This document shows, piece by piece, positions 5,503 through 41,632 of a stretch of DNA of 52,414 nt; within the stretch, counting starts at the first letter, position 1, and each line of letters begins with the position of its first letter. The notes beneath the pieces were generated by a model. That model did no database searches. It had not been told where the DNA came from and saw only the letters and a program-made list of their open reading frames with translations. Position numbers and translations under genes: made by a program. Source of the stretch: a virus; IMG/VR virus record IMGVR_UViG_3300046313_000852, positions 1-52,414 of that record; one strand, 5' to 3'.

Positions 5503-6906
5503 TTACTTATTGGTCAAATATGATTTGTATATGATGCCGATCACACCCGAAGTGGTTTGTTGGCTGCTAACTTTAGCGATCATTGATTGAATATCTGTTA
5601 TTATTTCAGCCGACATCGTTAGTGTCCGATTAATAATTTCAGGTGAATATTTGAATTCTCGTGAATCCGCGAGTTGCAATCTAAGAGTTGCTACGTGCTG
5701 CTTGAAGTTAGTGTTCAGTACCTTTGCTGATCGTAGAGCGTGCTCGAGGGCGGACACAACATCACTGCGGACTGAACTTACGTCGAGGGATGAGAAGTCA
5801 GGTGTAGTTGCCAGAAATTTTCTAATCATTGTTGGCCGAGCAAGTTGATCATACTCAAATATCTCCGATAGAGTTTTCAACAAGTCAGTATAAACTGATC
5901 CTGTTCTCGTATCGATCAATCGGAGTTCATCCGCCACCTGCTTTGGCATTGAGCTCTTTAGTTGCCCACGAATTGCAAAGTTGAAATTATTGAATGCTGT
6001 AAACACATCCTTATCAACAATTTTAACTTGTGTATTAGTTGCAGGGTCAAACAATACTACCCCCTCGACACCCGGATCGATGCTTTTATCAACACCACCA
6101 ACATCTCTCAGGGATGGAGTGAGGGTTCTGACAAATTTAATCAATAGTTCTTGTTTGATTGGGAGCTTGAAGTTGTGTAGGATTACATCACCTATCTGCT
6201 TCTTCAATGCAACAATTTCAGGTGCCCTCGATTGTAGAGCTATCAATTCTCTGATTGTTGGTGAACTCCCTGATGCTAAATCAACCGTACCGTCGAGGTA
6301 TTGATTCAGTTGAGAGATTTGCTCACTAAAGTCTACTGCAGATAATTGTTGAGTATCTAATTGTTGAGGAGTGACGAACCTCCAGGTAACTGGCTCATTT
6401 GAGTTAATTACTGTCTCTCCGTCTGTCGAAGTGTATAATTTAGTATCAATTGTCACTGTCGGAAACTTAATTCCTTTGAGAGAGGCAATGATGGAGTCAG
6501 AGTCAGGTGATAATGCCCGCAAAAATGCGATACACGACGATCCATATATAATTGCATTTGGTTGTGCGCCAAACAGTACTTCAACTTCAACTAAGGTATT
6601 TGCTGGTAATACAGGCTTCAGTAGTGGAGCGATTTGGCGCAGGGCTTGGTGTGCAGACTTAAACCCAGTCATTGCTGCGGAGTCTCCCCACTCTTCGGGG
6701 TCATATCGCCTCGTCGCTGACCCTTTCTGTTGCCGAGAACAGAAAAGCTCCCCACCATCATCAATTCCAAATGTGAGTGCAGCACCATCTAGCTTTTCAG
6801 TAGCTATAAATTTGGATAATCTGGTGATGACACCAATAAAAGAATCTAAATCGAGATCTTCTATGTGAGTGATTCCTTCTGAAAGATATTGCTTGAAAGA
6901 TCGCAT
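5503..6906 (-). CDS. ATP-dependent polynucleotide ligase-like protein with capsid-targeting peptide
   Basis: A 467-residue nucleotidyltransferase-fold protein. Motif I is TEKLDGAAL with Lys38 as the expected AMP acceptor, motif III is LVEVEVLFG, motif IV VEGVVLF and motif V VKIVDK, in the order seen in DNA/RNA ligases. The C-terminal half is helical. The N-terminus MRSFKQYLSEG ends in LSE|G, a T4-type capsid-targeting and cleavage signal, suggesting that the enzyme is packaged in the head and delivered with the DNA. An AATAAATA late-type box lies 28-35 nt upstream of the start. Whether it joins DNA, RNA or nicked tRNA cannot be told. Confidence 0.75.
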   Translation of the reverse strand: MRSFKQYLSEGITHIEDLDLDSFIGVITRLSKFIATEKLDGAALTFGIDDGGELFCSRQQKGSATRRYDPEEWGDSAAMTGFKSAHQALRQIAPLLKPVLPANTLVEVEVLFGAQPNAIIYGSSCIAFLRALSPDSDSIIASLKGIKFPTVTIDTKLYTSTDGETVINSNEPVTWRFVTPQQLDTQQLSAVDFSEQISQLNQYLDGTVDLASGSSPTIRELIALQSRAPEIVALKKQIGDVILHNFKLPIKQELLIKFVRTLTPSLRDVGGVDKSIDPGVEGVVLFDPATNTQVKIVDKDVFTAFNNFNFAIRGQLKSSMPKQVADELRLIDTRTGSVYTDLLKTLSEIFEYDQLARPTMIRKFLATTPDFSSLDVSSVRSDVVSALEHALRSAKVLNTNFKQHVATLRLQLADSREFKYSPEIINRTLTMSAEIITDIQSMIAKVSSQQTTSGVIGIIYKSYLTNK

Positions 6907-6951: not shown

Positions 6952-8247
6952 TTATGTCAAGTCAAATATGCCTGTTATAGACTTGCGCTTTGGAAGTGGT
7001 GATTTTTCACCGTACTGTTTTTCTCGGGGATTGAAAATCTTCAATGATTTGGGTTTCCACCCTAGATTGACAATACTCCCGACACCATCAGAACTACGTG
7101 TTTTCAGAAACTGAAAACCGATCTGGCCAGCCGCCCGCATTGCGTCTGTCAAGTGGATAGCTAGACACCAATCTGAACTGCGGATCTTTTCCGCTCCACC
7201 AGCCTGATGACTCTGATCATATACCTCAACGTTCGCTGCACCTTTCGTAAGCTGAGAAGCTGTCAAGCCAATCATGTCATACTCCACAAGCAGATCAATA
7301 AATTCTTCAGTGATAAACTTATCACGAGTGCCGATGTTCTCAGTTGATACCGCCTGAATTGGGTAACACTTGTCGAGGTAGTCTAACACAATAACATCTG
7401 GTACCCACCCACGTTCGATTTCAATCTCTTTGATTAGCGCTCGAATATCATTGGCAGTTGTACCCAACCTCATCTTCTTGATTACTAAATCTCCATGAAA
7501 TTCTGATTGTGCATTCACAATTGCTTGCACATCCTCTACATTTTTATTGACATCTATTGAGCTTTTGTCAGAGATAATCATTTGGGTTCGTTTATCGAAC
7601 ATCTTCTCAGATAGCTCCAACGAGACACACAAACAATTCAAATACTTGCCATTCTCTTTCTGCTTGATCAAATTTAAACCAAAATTTAAAATCGACACAC
7701 TCTTGCCACCGCCAGATATTGCCAATACCAACATCATCTCCGTTCTTGCGATACCACCATCCATCTTCTGATCGAGATCAGCATACCCTGTAGAAAAACG
7801 AGTCACCTGAGCGTCTTGCCCTGCACGTTCTTCAATTTTATCAAAAAACGATATGCCGGTATCCTTATCAACACGAATAGAGATGGCGGTGCGGATTAGT
7901 GATTCTAACTCACCCAGTTTATTATTGATAATCAGTTCAGGTGATTTATCTACAATGATTAACCTGAGTGCTGATTGTTTACAGAACAGCTCCAGCCGCT
8001 CGGTACTAAATTTAATTTGATCTCTAGATAGCTCTACAGTAGGGACATCAACGGTAGTCTCTGTACGGATCATTGTAGAAGAGGGTATACCATTGTAAGA
8101 TACGTAATACTCTTGAATGAAGGAAATTACTTTGCGATATTCTGGATTGAAGTATTGTGGCTTTACGATTGTGGATGTTCGTGCAAATAGATTAGGGTCT
8201 GAAATCCAATGGGATATTAGTTGTAGCTGTTGTTCAGAGTTTAACAT
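6952..8247 (-). CDS. Replicative DNA helicase, DnaB/T4 gp41 family
   Basis: A 431-residue hexameric helicase. The N-terminal helical domain is followed by TGYADLDQKMDGGIARTEMM, the Walker A LAISGGGKSVS (about 176-184), a Walker B strand VIVLDYLDK (about 285-292), the GLTASQLTKGA sensor and a basic QFLKTRSSDG loop. Such helicases unwind the fork 5'-3' with the primase, which in this window is encoded about 40 kb away. Length is close to T4 gp41 (475). A terminator lies directly upstream of the gene, so its transcription starts locally. Confidence 0.93.
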   Translation of the reverse strand: MLNSEQQLQLISHWISDPNLFARTSTIVKPQYFNPEYRKVISFIQEYYVSYNGIPSSTMIRTETTVDVPTVELSRDQIKFSTERLELFCKQSALRLIIVDKSPELIINNKLGELESLIRTAISIRVDKDTGISFFDKIEERAGQDAQVTRFSTGYADLDQKMDGGIARTEMMLVLAISGGGKSVSILNFGLNLIKQKENGKYLNCLCVSLELSEKMFDKRTQMIISDKSSIDVNKNVEDVQAIVNAQSEFHGDLVIKKMRLGTTANDIRALIKEIEIERGWVPDVIVLDYLDKCYPIQAVSTENIGTRDKFITEEFIDLLVEYDMIGLTASQLTKGAANVEVYDQSHQAGGAEKIRSSDWCLAIHLTDAMRAAGQIGFQFLKTRSSDGVGSIVNLGWKPKSLKIFNPREKQYGEKSPLPKRKSITGIFDLT

Positions 8248-8635: not shown

Positions 8636-9574
8636 CTACACAAGAATGTATTGCTTCGGGATTGTTGTCATGGACGCTGGGTTAGATAGGATAAGTTGAT
8701 ATGATTCTGCGACAAGACTACCGAACTCCGAATCTGTACCTTTCCAATAAACATTTTTTACAATATCCGCCGCGGTGATACTGGGAGCAGTAGTCAGTGG
8801 AATTAACCAATCCCCATCTACCATGAGTTGCAGCGTCGATCCACGAGCAAGTAGCGATTGTGGTAACGTTGCTGAGTATAAAAAATATGGCTTCTCTAAT
8901 GCAATGTAACTATATTGATTCCACGGAGACTGAGAGATAACTCTATTGGTACTGTGTGCGTGGCCTTCAAACACTAGTGTAGTAGTGGTATAGTTAGTGC
9001 TACTCAACAACTTGACACGAATTGGTATTTCAATAGTAGGCAAATTCCTATCAACCGCGATGGTGAGCCTGTTGTTAAACAGAAGCGGTGGTGAAGTTAC
9101 TACAGTCGGAGGCAAGTGTTTGACTGGTGTTCTGTATTGATTATCAGTAACCACAATTGTACCAGTCCGTGTGTAACCCAAATCGATTGTGATACTATAT
9201 GCTGTCTGCGCTACAATTGTGAATGCCATCTGCTTGATTGTAGTGACAGATGTGCCGTTCGACACAGAAACAAATGGTTCAATTATTACAGAACCAAGGT
9301 GCCCGAACTGGTGAGGAATTTCGACAATTTGTTTATCGACGAAAGAGTGTTTGAACACTCGCGTTTTTTCACGCCAAGTCAATTCTGATCGCGGCGATTG
9401 TTGTTGGTTGGCGTCCCGTACCATCCTGCCGCTACAATTTTCAGTCAGAGTGCAATTATCCAAAAAGGAAATAGTACCGCCAGTAATGCGCTTGTATGCA
9501 GCTTTTTTGCAAGTCAAGCAAACGAGCATTTTGTTCACTACTCGCTTCGTTGTGATATTTTCTAATGGTATCAT
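8636..9574 (-). CDS. Putative virion structural protein with N-terminal Cys cluster
   Basis: A 312-residue protein. The N-terminus has a possible zinc site (CLTCKK, then two more Cys in DNCTLTENCSG, about residues 18-48). The rest is beta-rich with Thr, Ser and Val and no catalytic signature, in keeping with a baseplate, neck or tail accessory protein. It overlaps the next upstream gene by 4 nt. I do not recognise the family. Confidence 0.65.
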   Translation of the reverse strand: MIPLENITTKRVVNKMLVCLTCKKAAYKRITGGTISFLDNCTLTENCSGRMVRDANQQQSPRSELTWREKTRVFKHSFVDKQIVEIPHQFGHLGSVIIEPFVSVSNGTSVTTIKQMAFTIVAQTAYSITIDLGYTRTGTIVVTDNQYRTPVKHLPPTVVTSPPLLFNNRLTIAVDRNLPTIEIPIRVKLLSSTNYTTTTLVFEGHAHSTNRVISQSPWNQYSYIALEKPYFLYSATLPQSLLARGSTLQLMVDGDWLIPLTTAPSITAADIVKNVYWKGTDSEFGSLVAESYQLILSNPASMTTIPKQYILV

Positions 9575-10121: not shown

Positions 10122-11264
10122 TTACTCAACTGAATCATCAACAGTCTCGATTGCCCATGCTGGTTTATATTCAGAATACCGCTTGATTAAAAATTGTGGG
10201 TAGTCCACAATCCGTCCCAAGTAGGTATTCATCATCAATTGCATCAGGTCAGGATGTTCACACTGTGCCTTGATTGCATATTCCTTGCGCTCAAGCAACT
10301 TGTTTTCAGCATAAAATTTACTGACTTGAGACTCAATCGAATTAAGAATTGGGAACACGTGATTCTCCATTGCTGTAATTCGATCTTGGACGTACTTGTC
10401 GTCGACGAAGATACTGCGAATATCATCCGTCCCCTGGACCGCGGCTAGTTCAAATAGTGCGCGGGGGCTGTTGACATTATCCTTCTGCTTATGCAACAGA
10501 ACGTATTTGTCAGCCTTACACTTCACCAGGTACCGTAGCCCTGTCGTAGGATTGTGCATCTCGACTACACAACCTTCACCTTCTTGCATTTGCTTGCAAT
10601 ACTCATTGAATTCTGATGGGATCATTTCTGGAACCCCGTGAGAGACTAGGTACTCACTCGGGACAGTAACACCAGTGACTTGTGCTATTTGTGTTGGGAG
10701 AATATACTCCCCTGTTGCCAAACTTCGGATGCCCAAAATTCGCAATTGTGGGATTTGATATCCCACGACGATTCGATTGTGTGGTGCGGTGTACTCCAGA
10801 CTGACTGTGTAACCAGATAACTCCAGCATTTTTAGCGCGATCCGCAGTTCTTCGTGGTATGAGATGTAATATGCTGCGTCGCCTGACTGATCAGAATACA
10901 CCGAACCCTTAGACTTAACATGTAGATTGCCGTTGACCAACATTGTGCTAATTAGTGATCCATCTAGTTTTTCCATTGCACTCGAAATAACACACTCATC
11001 GTGGTCCACCCCACCTTCGGCAAAATTAAAGAATTTTTGAGGTGGGAGAGAAATCAACTGAGGGTTGCCTGTGATGTCATATGTCGTGCCACGACAGTCA
11101 AGTGCACCTGGCTTCTGGAATTCTGTCCACGACGCGAGGCGGTAGTTGAAAATTCGAAGGACTCTCCCCAGATATTCAAAATCTTTGAAGTAAAAAGTAT
11201 CACCTTCACTGCATAGAGCCATAAGGTCTGTATACAATGTATTAGCATTGAACTTAGTTGACAT
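10122..11264 (-). CDS. rnlA: RNA ligase 1 (T4 RnlA family)
   Basis: A 380-residue ligase, almost the length of T4 Rnl1 (374). Motif I SAMEKLDGSLIS places the AMP-accepting lysine at residue 99, as in T4 Rnl1. Motif III is VSLEYTAPHNRIV, motif IV GEGCVVEM and motif V VKCKADKYV. The C-terminal helical domain that binds tRNA follows. In T4 the enzyme reseals tRNA cut in the anticodon loop by host suicide nucleases, which suits a phage with a large tRNA set. An early promoter lies just upstream. Confidence 0.93.
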   Translation of the reverse strand: MSTKFNANTLYTDLMALCSEGDTFYFKDFEYLGRVLRIFNYRLASWTEFQKPGALDCRGTTYDITGNPQLISLPPQKFFNFAEGGVDHDECVISSAMEKLDGSLISTMLVNGNLHVKSKGSVYSDQSGDAAYYISYHEELRIALKMLELSGYTVSLEYTAPHNRIVVGYQIPQLRILGIRSLATGEYILPTQIAQVTGVTVPSEYLVSHGVPEMIPSEFNEYCKQMQEGEGCVVEMHNPTTGLRYLVKCKADKYVLLHKQKDNVNSPRALFELAAVQGTDDIRSIFVDDKYVQDRITAMENHVFPILNSIESQVSKFYAENKLLERKEYAIKAQCEHPDLMQLMMNTYLGRIVDYPQFLIKRYSEYKPAWAIETVDDSVE

Positions 11265-11306
11265 GTTTAAATATTTCCTTGATTCGGGGATTGTTCAGAT
11301 GAGTTT

Positions 11307-11334
11307 ATTATACCCTAATTCCAGATTAAGGCAA
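11307..11334 (-). promoter_or_regulatory. Early sigma70 promoter for rnlA
   Basis: Minus strand TTGCCT, 16-nt spacer, TATAAT, in the same context (TTAGGGTATAAT) as the other early promoters of this phage. Confidence 0.75.
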
Positions 11335-11356: not shown

Positions 11357-11659
11357 TCAGAGTACTACAGAAAGTCCAAGCAACCCGACTGCAATTACCG
11401 CCAATACCGAGTTCACACCTGGAATCAACATCAAGATTATGAGAGTGGGTAGGTGCCAGTCGAGCCAATTACCAAACATCGGAACATTTTCTTCTTCCAC
11501 GAGAACTTCCACTCCATCAACTTGAGTACTTTGGAGTCGGTTACCAAACCGATCGACTCTCGCACTCAGCAATCGTTCTTTATTGTAGGCTTCGAACATA
11601 ATGAATCCGAGAGCCCCACAGAGTAACATGCTGACTACATACAATAAACCACTTGCCAT
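11357..11659 (-). CDS. Small membrane protein with IPGVN motif (100 aa)
   Basis: An N-terminal transmembrane segment (LLYVVSMLLCGALGFIMF), a charged middle region and a C-terminal hydrophobic hairpin with MLIPGVNSVLAVIAVGLLGL. The LIPGVN turn recurs in the next gene upstream, so the two are probably distant paralogs. Inner-membrane location is inferred; function is unknown. Confidence 0.65.
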   Translation of the reverse strand: MASGLLYVVSMLLCGALGFIMFEAYNKERLLSARVDRFGNRLQSTQVDGVEVLVEEENVPMFGNWLDWHLPTLIILMLIPGVNSVLAVIAVGLLGLSVVL

Positions 11660-11671
11660 ATAATTCTCCAG

Positions 11672-11944
11672 TTAAAATAATTTAGTGTCCAAGAAATTTC
11701 TCTTGTGGGAATCACGGTCTCTCGATGATCGATTGAATATATTATCGATGGAGACGAGGATAACCCACACACTGGTACCAAATACAATCATCACAGGAAT
11801 TATCATGTTGACCCCGGGAATGAGCGAGGTGACAATTGTGACTAATAGTGTCCCGATTGTGACAGCTCTGAAGTGCAATTTGATCGCAATTACCATCACA
11901 ACGAAGCAAATTGCAATAGACGTGAGATATAACTGAGTTTCCAT
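11672..11944 (-). CDS. Small membrane protein with IPGVN motif (90 aa)
   Basis: Three hydrophobic segments (LTSIAICFVVMVIAI, VTIGTLLVTIVTSLI and MIIPVMIVFGTSVWVIL) and a basic C-terminal tail. The SLIPGVNMIIPV turn matches the neighbouring membrane protein. It follows the coiled-coil gene after 1 nt, within one early operon. Confidence 0.65.
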   Translation of the reverse strand: METQLYLTSIAICFVVMVIAIKLHFRAVTIGTLLVTIVTSLIPGVNMIIPVMIVFGTSVWVILVSIDNIFNRSSRDRDSHKRNFLDTKLF

Positions 11945-33584: not shown

Positions 33585-33659
33585 TGGTGCTCCCACAAGG
33601 ACTTGAACCCTGCTTTCCGGATTACAAAACCGGTACATCGCCGTCTATGTTTTGAGAGC
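33585..33659 (-). tRNA. tRNA-Thr (UGU)
   Basis: Acceptor GCTCTCA/TGGGAGC, D-stem ACAT/ATGT, anticodon loop TTTGTAA, T-arm CAGGG-TTCAAGT-CCTTG, CCA encoded. Confidence 0.92.
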
Positions 33660-34387: not shown

Positions 34388-34462
34388 GGTGGCATCACAT
34401 GAGGACTCTTACCCCAGAGTGTGTTATGGAGAACACACCAACAAACGATGCATCATGCCACC
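34388..34462 (-). ncRNA. tRNA-like RNA with TAAGAGT T-loop (copy 1)
   Basis: Closed by GGTGGCAT/ATGCCACC. Contains GTGTGTT-CTCCAT-AACACAC where an anticodon arm would be, and TGGGG-TAAGAGT-CCTCA in the T-arm place, with 4 extra bases before the closing stem. The same T-arm-like hairpin occurs in a second element about 1 kb away. It is not a standard tRNA. Confidence 0.5.
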
Positions 34463-34507
34463 ACGATGCATTCTGTTTACTATTTCGGTTAATTACGCCG
34501 ACTAATT

Positions 34508-34583
34508 TGGTTGCGGATGGAACGATTTGAACGCCTCCTTGAGGTTATGAGCCTCGTGTGCTGCCGGATTACACTACACCGCG
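34508..34583 (-). tRNA. tRNA-fMet-like (CAU)
   Basis: Anticodon loop CTCATAA in a GAGG/CCTC stem, T-loop TTCAAAT, A73 and CCA encoded. The unpaired C1/A72 at the top of the acceptor is the hallmark of initiator tRNA. The acceptor has two further mismatches and the T-stem is irregular, so activity is uncertain. Its 5' half overlaps the end of the HNH gene. Confidence 0.75.
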
Positions 34584-34587
34584 ATAA
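34557..34587 (-). repeat. 31-bp direct repeat, copy A (tRNA-fMet 5' half)
   Basis: Identical to 35362-35392. The two copies flank the HNH gene, whose stop codon lies within this copy. Confidence 0.95.
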
Positions 34588-35296
34588 CTTTTAATTTACT
34601 TACAGATTTCCGTAGAAAATAACCCGTTGGTGGTTTTGTTAATTCCCACTTTTTTACCCAACGATTCACGCCATTGTCTGACATATTATACTTTTTACCA
34701 ATTTTTGTTAACGGTATCTTCCACAATAATTCTTGCAATTCCTCTTTTGTAAAGTTTGCTTTTATAGGTTGTGGAATATATGGCGGCTTCTTTGCAACTG
34801 GTGAGTTCAATTGGGTTTTATTCCTACCAGCAAATGTGGTGGTTTGACTATGACAATTCGGACATAAGAAGCACAAATTTTCTAATCTGTGATCAGTTCG
34901 TACTCCATTCTTGTGTTCTAGTTGTAAAGTAATGGGAGTACCTTGCCAAATTGGCCCCATATCACAATTTACACATTTGTATTGTAGAACACCTTCCTTA
35001 ATCAAACGCTTTTTCAAAGACGAACGGTCATAATTCGTGGATTCTATTAATATTTCTGACAGTGGGCGGCCGGTAGATCCATTTCTTGTCTGAGGTCTAT
35101 TTAAGTGAGGATCGAAATGTGAAATATCTATCCCATACTTCGCAACATATTTCCTAAATGTAACAGCATTTGATGCAGGAGTAAGCCCCAGCTGTCTTAA
35201 TACTTCACTCATTGAGACCGATTTTTTAATCAACTCCTCCAACATTTGGCGATTATGCCAATCTACTTTAAAACTACCTCTTTTTATATTGACCAT
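34574..35296 (-). CDS. HNH homing endonuclease
   Basis: A 240-residue protein with N-terminal helices (MVNIKRGSFKVDWHNRQMLE, a MSEVLRQLGL turn), then LQYKCVNCDMGPIW (zinc-binding CxxC), LQLEHKNGVRTDHRLENLCF (the EHxNG...N HNH core) and LCPNCHSQTTTFAGRN (second CxxC). Its end (NMSDNGVNRWVKK) is a helix-turn-helix. It is a freestanding mobile endonuclease inserted at tRNA-fMet. A CATAAATA late box lies upstream. Confidence 0.9.
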   Translation of the reverse strand: MVNIKRGSFKVDWHNRQMLEELIKKSVSMSEVLRQLGLTPASNAVTFRKYVAKYGIDISHFDPHLNRPQTRNGSTGRPLSEILIESTNYDRSSLKKRLIKEGVLQYKCVNCDMGPIWQGTPITLQLEHKNGVRTDHRLENLCFLCPNCHSQTTTFAGRNKTQLNSPVAKKPPYIPQPIKANFTKEELQELLWKIPLTKIGKKYNMSDNGVNRWVKKWELTKPPTGYFLRKSVSKLKVIAV

Positions 35297-35329: not shown

Positions 35330-35361
35330 ATGGCCAGCGAGATGGTTAGTTGGTGGGCTCA

Positions 35362-35392
35362 TGTGCTGCCGGATTACACTACACCGCGATAA
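35362..35392 (-). repeat. 31-bp direct repeat, copy B (orphan tRNA 5' half)
   Basis: A second copy of the acceptor 5' strand and D-arm of tRNA-fMet. No anticodon or T-arm follows, so it is a remnant left by insertion of the HNH gene. Confidence 0.9.
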
Positions 35393-35398
35393 ATTTCT

Positions 35399-35497
35399 GG
35401 GTCCATTCTGTGAGGACTCTTACCTCAGATTTTCTTCTACCCTTTCGGGGGCAGACACTGTATACACTGTATACACAGTAAGAATGACCATAGACCC
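35399..35497 (-). ncRNA. tRNA-like RNA with TAAGAGT T-loop (copy 2)
   Basis: Closed by an 8-bp stem (GGGTCTAT/ATGGACCC on the minus strand, one G-U). Holds CTGCCC-CCGAAA-GGGTAG as the central hairpin, two TGTATACA palindromes and TGAGG-TAAGAGT-CCTCA near the 3' end, as in copy 1. No anticodon loop of 7 nt is present. Confidence 0.5.
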
Positions 35498-35590
35498 GAG
35501 ATCAGTTCTGTTTACTTCTACATCACGTCTGATGTACTAATTTTGGCTTTAGTTGCTACTGAGCTATATGCTAATGATAAAATGATAATT

Positions 35591-35692: not shown

Positions 35693-35715
35693 TCAATCAT
35701 ATAAAGTACACAAAG

Positions 35716-35801
35716 TGCTGGACACAGGATTCGAACCTGCGATGGATAATAAAATCAATAGCTTACAAGGCTATTCCCGTCAACCGCTTGGGTAATCCAG
35801 C
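35716..35801 (-). tRNA. tRNA-Thr (UGU) with long variable region
   Basis: Acceptor GCTGGAT/GTCCAGC with the ThrRS identity pairs G1-C72 and C2-G71, anticodon arm ATAGC-CTTGTAA-GCTAT, T-arm GCAGG-TTCGAAT-CCTGT, A73. The D-arm (CCC/GGG) and the 17-nt variable region are of class II type. CCA is not encoded. Confidence 0.82.
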
Positions 35802-35847
35802 ACTTTGTATACTCACTATGAGTGGTGGGTGCACGTTGTATGTCTTC

Positions 35848-37109: not shown

Positions 37110-37204
37110 TGGCTCCCCAGGCAGGCATCGAACCTGCATATTACGGCTTCCGCCCTTTACGTCTGATTAACAGTCAGGTCTCTTACCAATTAGAGTACCG
37201 GGGA
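37110..37204 (-). tRNA. tRNA-Asn (GUU) with 24-nt variable arm
   Basis: Acceptor TCCCCGG/CTGGGGA, anticodon loop CTGTTAA, T-arm GCAGG-TTCGATG-CCTGC, G73 and CCA encoded. Between anticodon arm and T-arm there are 24 nt containing a CGG-AAG-CCG-type hairpin, where normal tRNA-Asn has 5. Confidence 0.88.
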
Positions 37205-38304: not shown

Positions 38305-38350
38305 TTTTTGTGGCTCCCTAGACAGGCATATTGAACCTGCATATTACGAC
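38305..38350 (-). pseudogene. Truncated tRNA-Asn copy
   Basis: Matches the 3' part of the tRNA-Asn at 37.1 kb, including GTAATATGCAGG, most of the T-arm and GGGAGCCACAAAAATAAATGC, but with an insertion in the T-loop and no anticodon half. Confidence 0.75.
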
Positions 38351-38351
38351 T

Positions 38352-38425
38352 TGGTCAGGGTAGAAGGAATCGAACCTTCACCACGACGTCCCAAACGTCG
38401 CATGATACCATTTCACCACACCCTG
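38352..38425 (-). tRNA. tRNA-Pro (UGG)
   Basis: Anticodon arm CGACG-TTTGGGA-CGTCG, acceptor CAGGGTG/TACCCTG, A73, CCA encoded. Confidence 0.94.
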
Positions 38426-38433
38426 ATAACTAA

Positions 38434-38612
38434 TTAGATCTAAGTGTGCTCCCGTTACAAACCATAGGTGAGTTGAGGCCTGGCGTAGTGCACACTTAGA
38501 TCTAATCACTCAGGGTTGAGAGAAACAAATTGTATTAACGGGAGGAATGAGGCGTCAGCGACCACTCATATTACCAACTCACAAATTAATACAAAGCGCT
38601 TCACGCCCTGAG
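38434..38612. ncRNA. Candidate pseudoknotted RNA
   Basis: No gene is present, yet complementary segments are dense. TTAGATCTAAGTGTGC pairs with GCACACTTAGATCTAA (16 bp, 38434-38449 and 38490-38505). CTCAGGG pairs with CCCTGAG (38509 and 38606). TTGTATTAA pairs with TTAATACAA (38530 and 38586), and ATGAG with CTCAT. Two segments of the first loop, TCCCGTTA (38450) and GTGAGTTG (38468), pair with TAACGGGA (38536) and CAACTCAC (38575), which crosses as an H-type pseudoknot. Strand is unknown. Confidence 0.55.
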
Positions 38613-38693
38613 CAATAAGATATTATTTCACACCTATTTGTTAATGATCATTTTTGCTACAGAATTCGATGATTCTGAGTGCACATATAATTG

Positions 38694-38916: not shown

Positions 38917-38945
38917 ATTATATATGCTTTATTTATATAAGTCAA
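38917..38945 (-). promoter_or_regulatory. Early sigma70 promoter
   Basis: TTGACT, 17-nt spacer, TATAAT. Confidence 0.8.
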
Positions 38946-38967: not shown

Positions 38968-39086
38968 AAAATATTTTCAAATCAAATTTTAGAAAGAACT
39001 TGAACCTCCCATCCAATAGGATAGCAATTGAACGCCGCTCCGACTGCTCTACCAATGAGCTATAAAATTTGATTTGAAAATATTTT
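38968..39086 (-). ncRNA. tRNA-like RNA with 24-bp terminal helix (element 1)
   Basis: A perfect 24-bp inverted repeat brackets a D-arm (TA-GCTC-ATTGGTA-GAGC), an ATCC/GGAT variable hairpin and a T-loop-like GGAGG-TTCAAGT. The inner 7 bp of the repeat occupy the acceptor position. No 7-nt anticodon loop can be drawn. A sigma70-type promoter lies just upstream. Confidence 0.65.
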
Positions 39087-39110
39087 AGATTTTCTAACTA
39101 CTTAGACCCC

Positions 39111-39138
39111 ATTATCGACATTTATTCGAAAATGTCAA
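39111..39138 (-). promoter_or_regulatory. Sigma70-type promoter for element 1
   Basis: TTGACA, 16-nt spacer, GATAAT, between tRNA-like elements 2 and 1. Confidence 0.65.
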
Positions 39139-39156
39139 CGATTATTTTCAAGTTGA

Positions 39157-39333
39157 AAAATAAATTTAGAAAGAGTGAGTAAGGGGAGATCGAACCCCAA
39201 CAACTCTGTGGATTTCTCGATAGGTAATATTACCTCCTATCGTGGCACAGACCCTCAATACTAATTAGGAGTCTACTAATCTATGCCCACACGAAGTTGG
39301 CTGCCTTGCAACCACTCTTTCTGAATTTATTTT
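39157..39333 (-). ncRNA. Large tRNA-like RNA with 21-bp terminal helix (element 2)
   Basis: A 21-bp inverted repeat with one mismatch closes a four-armed fold. The arms are D-like GTTG/CAAC, a long central stem (CGTG..GGCATAGA with TCTGTGCC..CACG), a GATAGG/CCTATC variable hairpin and a T-arm GGGG-TTCGATCT-CCCC. The central arm is about 60 nt, far larger than any anticodon arm. Confidence 0.65.
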
Positions 39334-39346
39334 ATACAAGAATTGC

Positions 39347-39503
39347 ACTAAAATCTGAACACAGTACTCGGTTGGATTTGCGCCAACTACCACCTGATGG
39401 TTACAGGTCGTACTATTCTCATGGGCTTTATAGCTAATATTTCCCACTACCTTTGTACTAGCTCTACTACTTAAGCTATCGTTTACTATGTTCAGATTTT
39501 AAT
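39347..39503 (-). ncRNA. Large tRNA-like RNA with extended terminal helix (element 3)
   Basis: Inverted repeat of about 20 bp with two mismatches, then D-arm GCTT-AAGTAGTA-GAGC, a large central domain, variable hairpin ACCTG-TAACCAT-CAGGT and T-arm GTTGG-CGCAAAT-CCAAC. The T-loop resembles that of the tmRNA in this genome (TGCAAAT). Confidence 0.65.
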
Positions 39504-39523
39504 GTAATCCTCACTTGATATCC

Positions 39524-39551
39524 ATTATCCATGAAACCTCAAGTAAGTCAA
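39524..39551 (-). promoter_or_regulatory. Sigma70-type promoter for elements 3 and 2
   Basis: TTGACT, 16-nt spacer, GATAAT. Confidence 0.65.
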
Positions 39552-40990: not shown

Positions 40991-41632
40991 TTATTTTGAA
41001 CTTATTTTTCCGTTTGGACTAGCATTTTTGAGCCAGTGTTGATCTGTCTGCACGTGTCCAGCCCTGACGTACTTTGTGACACAAGAGCTGAAGTTCTCGT
41101 AATTGAATGCGCGTGTCGCCCTCACAACAAAACCTTCCTCAATCGCAGTATCAAGATTTGCCGCGAGTTCCTTGAGTGCACTCTCATCATATACACCTCT
41201 ATACAGTTGTTTTGGTGTTGGGAGGGAAAATAGTTCAGCATACATCAGCGTGTCGTCGTATGACAGGCAAGTGTCATCATTCCACACAGACAGCAAATAT
41301 AGGTACCCCTCCAGGTAACCATCTGGATAGTGGATCGAATGTTTGGCATATACATTCTCGCAACACAGCCTGTACCCGATTGGTATATCGTGGGCAATTT
41401 GTGAGTGAATTTTCTTAGCAATATCACGAGTCCAATTAGACACCGAGTCGATCGAACGTGCGTGTAGATACCCATCTGGGTACAGCGTAGTGTTTTCACC
41501 ATCCATTTTCAGTGTCACGACAACTTCAGATCCTATCAGATCCTCCATAGATTGGATGACCTTGTCGTCTGATTGGAGGCCTGGGGAGAATGGTAGGTGG
41601 TACGTTCGAGGGTATTTTGTTCTAGAGGTCAT
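40991..41632 (-). CDS. RNA ligase, Rnl2-like family
   Basis: A 213-residue nucleotidyltransferase. Motif I is TLKMDGENTT with Lys42, motif III CCENVYAKHSIHY, motif IV EEGFVVR and motif V TKYVRAGH. Such short Rnl2-like ligases join or repair RNA, usually sealing nicks in duplex-like RNA. With RNA ligase 1 and the packaged ligase-like protein it is the third ligase fold in this window. Confidence 0.87.
   Translation of the reverse strand: MTSRTKYPRTYHLPFSPGLQSDDKVIQSMEDLIGSEVVVTLKMDGENTTLYPDGYLHARSIDSVSNWTRDIAKKIHSQIAHDIPIGYRLCCENVYAKHSIHYPDGYLEGYLYLLSVWNDDTCLSYDDTLMYAELFSLPTPKQLYRGVYDESALKELAANLDTAIEEGFVVRATRAFNYENFSSCVTKYVRAGHVQTDQHWLKNASPNGKISSK

Follow-up and report, generated by a model that had tools for sequence, protein, structure and literature searches.

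Three consecutive tRNA-like RNAs encoded on the minus strand of a phage genome fragment have no anticodon loop and are closed by helices of 21 to 24 bp. They are best read as divergent, anticodon-less members of a wider class of phage tRNAs in which pairing of the 5′ leader with the 3′ trailer extends the acceptor stem. We refer to this pairing as the clamp and propose, at a probability of roughly 45%, that the long closing helix is an RNase III release cassette in phage tRNA and tRNA-like genes. Our analysis gives moderate confidence in this putative mechanism for the class and lower confidence for the three RNAs themselves.

The window, by which we mean the whole stretch of 52,414 nucleotides that was analyzed, is part of the genome of a large tailed phage; this 52-kb fragment encodes RIIA/RIIB, a DnaB-like helicase, a primase, and two RNA ligases. 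ARAGORN finds 21 tRNAs, all on the minus strand and 19 of them within 32.0-38.4 kb. The three elements are located just upstream of this array in the direction of transcription and are transcribed in the order 3, 2, 1. The features considered here are the following.

39524..39551, minus strand: sigma70-type promoter upstream of element 3, TTGACT-16-GATAAT
39346..39504, minus strand: element 3, tRNA-like RNA, fold z -7.3
39157..39333, minus strand: element 2, tRNA-like RNA, fold z -4.4
39111..39138, minus strand: sigma70-type promoter between elements 2 and 1, TTGACA-16-GATAAT
38968..39086, minus strand: element 1, tRNA-like RNA, fold z -5.3
38917..38945, minus strand: sigma70-type promoter after element 1 and before a short reading frame, TTGACT-17-TATAAT
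35704..35814, minus strand: tRNA-Thr(UGU) with a type II body, a normal anticodon loop, and no CCA, fold z -5.6

A first-pass annotation had placed three RNAs at 38968-39503 and described them as having D-arm and T-arm signatures, closing helices of 18-24 bp, no 7-nt anticodon loop, and, in two cases, an enlarged central arm. The three elements are borne out by their helices and by folds far beyond those of shuffled sequences, with 0 of 200 shuffles as stable as the native sequence for each stretch. In element 1, 39063-39086 pairs with 38968-38991 in 24/24 Watson-Crick pairs and encloses a D-arm (~39046-39060), an extra arm, a T-arm (38992-39010), and, by the Rfam alignment, 25 nt where the anticodon arm is expected. 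The helix of element 2 joins 39313-39333 to 39157-39177 (20/21 paired, one mismatch), and the T-arm at 39183-39198 (GGGG-UUCGAUCU-CCCC) is accompanied by a large, branched central arm and a weak D-arm. Element 3 is closed by 39484-39504 with 39346-39366 (21/21 paired, including two G·U) and contains a D-arm (~39459-39478), an enlarged central arm, an extra arm, and a T-arm (39371-39387) whose loop is CGCAAAU. The T-arm signature thus holds for all three and the D-arm signature is weak in element 2; the helices are long as claimed, with actual lengths of 21-24 bp; and the two enlarged central arms are those of elements 2 and 3. Both the folds and the Rfam alignment confirm that a 5-bp anticodon stem with a 7-nt loop is not present in elements 1-3, and none of them encodes CCA. 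Element 1 scores 29.1 bits against the Rfam tRNA model RF00005 at 38984-39069 (threshold 29), and elements 2 and 3 do not match this model. No other foldback stem of the region comes close in strength to the three closing helices and the 20-bp helix of tRNA-Thr(UGU). When elements 1-3 were compared with cultured phages in DNA searches for near and distant relatives, only short chance matches came back. Inspection by eye for an intron in the anticodon loop of element 3 gave no fitting bulge-helix-bulge motif, and this idea was rejected.

The promoters that had been noted upstream of elements 1 and 3 are present, and a third follows element 1. TTGAC-N16-19-ATAAT sites occur 14 times in the window, every one on the minus strand, against 1.1 expected, and judging from these sequences the promoters near the elements belong to a phage-wide set that is not specific to elements 1-3. 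The set has the form TTGAC...(AATTAGGG)TATAAT, with 14 copies from 6939 to 48566 on the minus strand only, and its GGG part is missing in the three sites around elements 1-3.

Other features of the window were observed alongside. An RNA ligase (PF09414) is encoded at 40991-41632 on the minus strand, 1.5 kb away from the elements, a second RNA ligase with a T4 Rnl1 C-terminal domain is encoded at 10122-11264, and a permuted (two-piece) tmRNA lies at 1033-1253 on the minus strand (Rfam RF04321, 73 bits). Structured RNAs within the array at 34389-34470 and 35395-35500 (minus strand) have the arm TGAGGTAAGAGTCCTCA, or nearly so, in common and shorter closing helices. Two long foldback RNAs at 38431-38508 and 38505-38616 (minus strand) are located between tRNA-Pro and element 1; the first folds into a 19-bp stem (z -6.8) and shows no clear T-arm. 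At 34512-34582, 34574-35296, and 35360-35395, part of tRNA-Met recurs beyond a reading frame, as would result if the tRNA had been split and duplicated by a mobile gene, possibly a homing endonuclease. Finally, the variable arm of a tRNA-Asn at 37110-37204 (95 nt with CCA) is unusually long, and this tRNA recurs in truncated form at ~38310-38352, before tRNA-Pro.

The hyper-extended helix is not confined to the three elements. In the window, tRNA-Thr(UGU) at 35704-35814 is the canonical member of the clamped class, with an acceptor lengthened by a 13-bp leader-trailer helix to 20 bp in total; its ortholog in Synechococcus phage BUCT-ZZ01 is unclamped and bears CCA. Overall, at least 63 distinct phage tRNAs without CCA, the majority of them Asn-GUU, carry the helix, and their leader-trailer pairing runs 11-13 bp past the acceptor and then stops. 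Cases in cultured phages include a canonical tRNA-Asn of Sinorhizobium phage Phosso (421197-421271) and a tRNA-His of BUCT-ZZ01. A scan of 80 loci around relatives of the neighboring RNA ligase gave otherwise normal tRNA-Asn(GUU) genes with the long helix and without CCA in L017 and L081 (twice in the latter). Two seeded pattern scans of IMG/VR yielded 117 matches, in which the extension is always 11-15 bp when a 7-bp acceptor is in register and almost always 5-9 bp when it is out of register. Pairs 6-13, which are not forced by the seed, are formed in 23-26 of the 26 distinct in-register matches, and pairing among these same matches falls to 12, 6, and 9 at positions 14-16; 48 out-of-register control matches pair at chance throughout. 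Pairs 6-13 also covary: 80 double changes are counted over these eight positions, at which 95.7% are paired; 0 of 500 shuffles comes close, and slid controls are 39-47% paired. An independent seed (TATGC/GCATA) added 14 in-register cases, paired in 14/14 at positions 6-11, 12/14 at position 12, and 8/14 at position 13; twelve of these are tRNA-Asn, and in an ARAGORN-based tally Asn-GUU accounts for 16 of 41 clamped genes. Among 1,301 phage tRNAs that were not selected by seed, the extension is 0-8 bp in 1,283, 9-10 bp in none, and 11-17 bp in 18. The bimodal extension, the covariation, and the in-register behavior therefore mark a discrete class of measured length and not the tail of chance pairing, with the caveat that the class sequences are partly related to one another and the IMG/VR records are fragments. 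Since a fully paired encoded CCA occurs in only 1 in-register match among 92, the class is essentially CCA-less. Its distinguishing features are a helix of ~20 bp formed by leader-trailer pairing and no CCA, and elements 1-3, with CCA-less helices of 24, 21, and 21 bp, fall within it, their helices being slightly longer than the class norm. Stretches of XacN1, PA5oct, Caulobacter RB23, and T4 contained no clamped tRNA.

Long inverted repeats in L075 and L079 were at one point candidate class members and were removed from the set as attC sites (RYYYAAC / GTTRRRY ends); these ends are absent from the inverted repeats of elements 1-3. In both viral-classed contigs (L075:8700-10700, L079:1180-2620), relatives of the neighboring RNA ligase occur as cassettes within arrays that resemble those of integrons and have attC-type sites.

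Elements resembling 1-3 were recovered by a T-arm-based scan in L181, L252, L092, L015, and L124. The 21-bp helices of elements 2 and 3 resemble those of the anticodon-less elements in L252 (20 bp), L015, and L124 (20 bp), and that of a tRNA-Asp-like element in L490, a relative of the window phage.

L181:2217-2347: tRNA-like element resembling 1-3, 28-bp helix
L015:1438-1644: anticodon-less element, 21-bp helix with 165 nt inside
L490:7504-7600: tRNA-Asp-like element whose 7-nt anticodon loop is well formed, with a 21-bp closing helix and an odd T-loop

Two further peculiarities of such phages came to light. In L490, L092, L166, L183, and L273, the T-loop of some well-formed tRNAs with CCA reads AGCRUWA or GGCNGNN in place of UUCRANY, as though A54-U58 had replaced U54-A58; the L490 copies (7222-7292, 8702-8774, 8793-8877, 11239-11309, and 11626-11695) are missed by ARAGORN. 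Phage tRNA arrays also contain a second, sequence-conserved element, CCATATTGAARYRCAYT ... 60-100 nt ... ARTGTRYTTCAAYATGG, in at least 99 distinct copies with an essentially invariant outer 10 bp; among the matches listed, the interiors form 73 unrelated clusters and the first three bases are the CCA of the tRNA directly upstream in 47 of 98. Six loci of this element were tested and gave no Rfam family except tRNA. Copies are located at L494:8446-8564, L534:2797-2898 and 5671-5766, L524:5326-5427 and 9402, L713:173-272, and in L092, L252, L671, and many more.

From the long helices and the missing anticodon loop, the first-pass annotation had argued that the elements cannot be normal adaptors. 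This conclusion holds for elements 1-3 on account of the missing anticodon loop, whereas the argument from the helix does not, because the same helix occurs, in the window and in many other phages, on tRNAs whose anticodon arm is perfect, and also on chromosomal tRNAs of Patescibacteria, and therefore does not exclude an adaptor role. With the same seed, bacterial genomes yielded four in-register cases. Two are clamped tRNA-Trp genes in Dojkabacteria, one of them just before nusG-rplKAJL (genes named by reading frames); the Dojkabacteria bin has three tRNA-Trp genes, so tRNA-Trp is not single-copy there. The third is a clamped tRNA-Gln(UUG) in a Paceibacterota genome, the sole tRNA-Gln(UUG) among the tRNA loci read, and the fourth is a clamped tRNA-Asp adjoining rsmH/murD-like genes. 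The clamped chromosomal tRNAs of Patescibacteria should be needed for translation.

In the proposed mechanism, the clamp would act as a release cassette. Pairing of the 5′ leader with the 3′ trailer would add ~13 bp to the 7-bp acceptor, and stacking on the 5-bp T-stem would yield a continuous helix of ~25 bp with the tRNA ends mid-way. Host RNase III would bind this helix and cut it at the tRNA ends in a staggered fashion: the leader strand between -1 and +1, the trailer strand after nucleotide 74, with the usual 2-nt 3′ overhang (N73-C74) as a result. Neither RNase P nor RNase Z would be needed to free the RNA from the array transcript. True tRNAs of the class would then be completed by the CCA-adding enzyme, and elements 1-3 would probably be released likewise as stable tRNA-like RNAs, comparable to the T4 species 1 RNA. 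We infer RNase III as the enzyme, the cut positions, and the stability of elements 1-3; a host RNase III is assumed because none of 52 phage records encodes one.

Besides the bimodal length, the covariation, and the occurrence on chromosomal tRNAs described above, the case for this model draws on the pattern within the clamp. At position 11, 36 of the 63 distinct CCA-less phage tRNAs have a G·U wobble (leader G, trailer U) and 9 have G-C; at any other of positions 6-13, G·U occurs in at most 5 of 63. Position 12 is A-U in 38/63, and AG/UU at 11-12 is found in 27/63. In Escherichia coli, the RNase III distal box is UU/AG at positions 10-11 from the cut center (PMC5141509), and a U-G wobble is enriched in the distal box of both Bacillus subtilis and E. 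coli (PMC11780869). The conserved G·U at 11 followed by A-U would match the distal box by pair type and position, leaving aside which strand carries which half of it. Setting the box at 11-12 would place the center between extension pairs 1 and 2 and the cuts at the tRNA ends, with the acceptor and T-stem giving a similar helix length on the other side of the predicted cut. Products of RNase III have 2-nt 3′ overhangs (PMC4858673). The E. coli proximal box is CWUW/WAWG at positions 2-5 (PMC5141509); in the clamped set, positions 3-5 were forced by the search patterns in most sequences. At 21-24 bp, the closing helices of elements 1-3 have the approximately two helix turns of an RNase III substrate. 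The G·U/A-U combination at the distal-box position is absent in all three, and tRNA-Thr(UGU) has G-C and A-U there; for elements 1-3 the model is thus extended by analogy. Several observations also count against the release model: a general processing site does not explain the Asn-GUU bias, most tRNAs without CCA have C74 in any case (446/507), the CCA-adding enzyme is not enriched among clamped phages, and most changes in the closing helices of a close relative break pairs.

This last point comes from two IMG/VR contigs that cover the elements and end within ~130 bases of element 1. One contig is identical and the other, L005, is ~96% identical, differing at 17/454 sites in the elements and 12/216 in the spacers. 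In L005, the element 2 T-arm carries a compensatory double change (39198 G>A / 39183 C>T), a G·U of the element 1 T-arm becomes G-C, and the element 3 T-loop changes C>U, towards U54, to give UGCAAAU. By these changes, the T-arms of elements 1-3 look constrained. Of five changes in the closing helices, four break a pair, and constraint on these helices is therefore not visible over this short term.

The broken pairs are what would be expected if elements 1-3 were relics of decaying tRNA pseudogenes whose inverted repeats arose from fold-back copying at replication. Perfect 24-bp complementarity is the expected product of such copying, and the anticodon and CCA are missing. Decay would not account for the class-wide length limit and covariation, for T-arm changes in L005 that keep or improve pairing, one of them double, or for three consecutive elements with their own promoters, and we regard this explanation as unlikely. 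Another possibility is that the elements are stable tRNA-like RNAs that have a function of their own and need no special processing, with a stem that only shields the ends from exonucleases. The long stems of elements 1-3 have no sequence motif, and the T4 species 1 and 2 RNAs provide a precedent within a tRNA cluster; given that the measured length and G·U motif of the class would be left unexplained, we consider this rather improbable.

Decoys or sponges are a different kind of alternative, in which the helix locks the 3′ end against charging and the tRNA body occupies a tRNA-cutting defense nuclease or a modifying enzyme. Such a role would suit the missing CCA, the paired discriminator base, the Asn-GUU bias (16/41 and 12/14 in the two tallies above), and the frequent presence of a normal copy as well, such as the second tRNA-Thr(UGU) of the window at 33585-33659 or a tRNA-Asn in L081. 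There is also a precedent in YrlA, whose tRNA-like domain has been proposed to inhibit an anticodon nuclease by competition (PMC7790460). A decoy would have no need for a fixed-length extension with G·U at position 11, and the clamp is found on chromosomal tRNAs of Patescibacteria. Because elements 1-3 offer no anticodon loop, the earlier suggestion that they are decoys for tRNA-targeting nucleases is unlikely for them where anticodon nucleases are concerned. The companion suggestion of a sponge for processing enzymes comes nearest to the findings, although the helix resembles a cleavage site more than a sponge. Overall, a decoy or sponge role seems improbable. Bacterial Y RNAs combine a tRNA-like domain with a long end-to-end stem, and the clamped RNAs could in principle mimic tRNA and partner a Ro60 (TROVE) protein that binds the stem. 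Jumbo phages can encode TROVE proteins (PMC7824862), and 5 of 23 clamped records have one; so do 9 of ~46 control phages, which is no enrichment. The window, L004, L005, G001, and G002, all fragments, contain no Ro60/TROVE gene, the Rfam YrlA model (RF02553) scores 14 bits against a threshold of 69, and stem sequences vary from case to case, making this reading very improbable. Both the decoy and the Y-RNA readings are weaker than the reading of the clamp as an RNase III release site.

In the prevailing view, tRNA 5′ ends are made almost universally by RNase P. If the release model is true, a measured helix with an RNase III-like site at both tRNA ends would constitute a second bacterial route, which phages carry and which also occurs on the chromosomal tRNAs of bacteria that are reduced. 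In its broadest form, the proposal is that phages and some Patescibacteria make both ends of certain tRNAs by one RNase III event, bypassing RNase P and RNase Z, and that phages release anticodon-less RNAs likewise; we put this forward tentatively, as a possibility still open to considerable doubt. The clamp also provides a simple mark by which tRNA-like RNAs that are not adaptors, and that escape tRNA finders, can be recognized in phage tRNA arrays.

The class of clamped tRNAs is apparently undescribed, as no description of it was found in the open-access literature searched. The same holds for structured non-adaptor tRNA-like RNAs in this setting, which are absent from Rfam and the open-access papers searched, in agreement with the first-pass annotation. 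The nearest known systems each have some of the features in common. The T4 species 1 and 2 RNAs (rnaC, rnaD) are small stable RNAs in a phage tRNA cluster, which is also the setting of the elements, and in species 1 a T-arm is combined with a large central arm; unlike elements 1-3, neither has an extended closing helix. YrlA (RF02553) resembles the elements in its tRNA-like domain and long end-to-end stem, but the elements fall far short of its model and no Ro60 gene is present in these fragment records. Canonical tRNAs (RF00005) have the D- and T-arm in common with the elements, and element 1 is at the score threshold, whereas elements 1-3 have no anticodon loop or CCA and an acceptor stem of at least 20 bp. 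With respect to mechanism, the closest likeness is to the leader-trailer helices of 16S and 23S rRNA, in which distant strands pair around a stable RNA and RNase III leaves a 2-nt overhang (PMC4858673), as proposed for the clamp; in contrast to the rRNA helices, the clamp surrounds single tRNAs and its predicted cut is at the mature ends.
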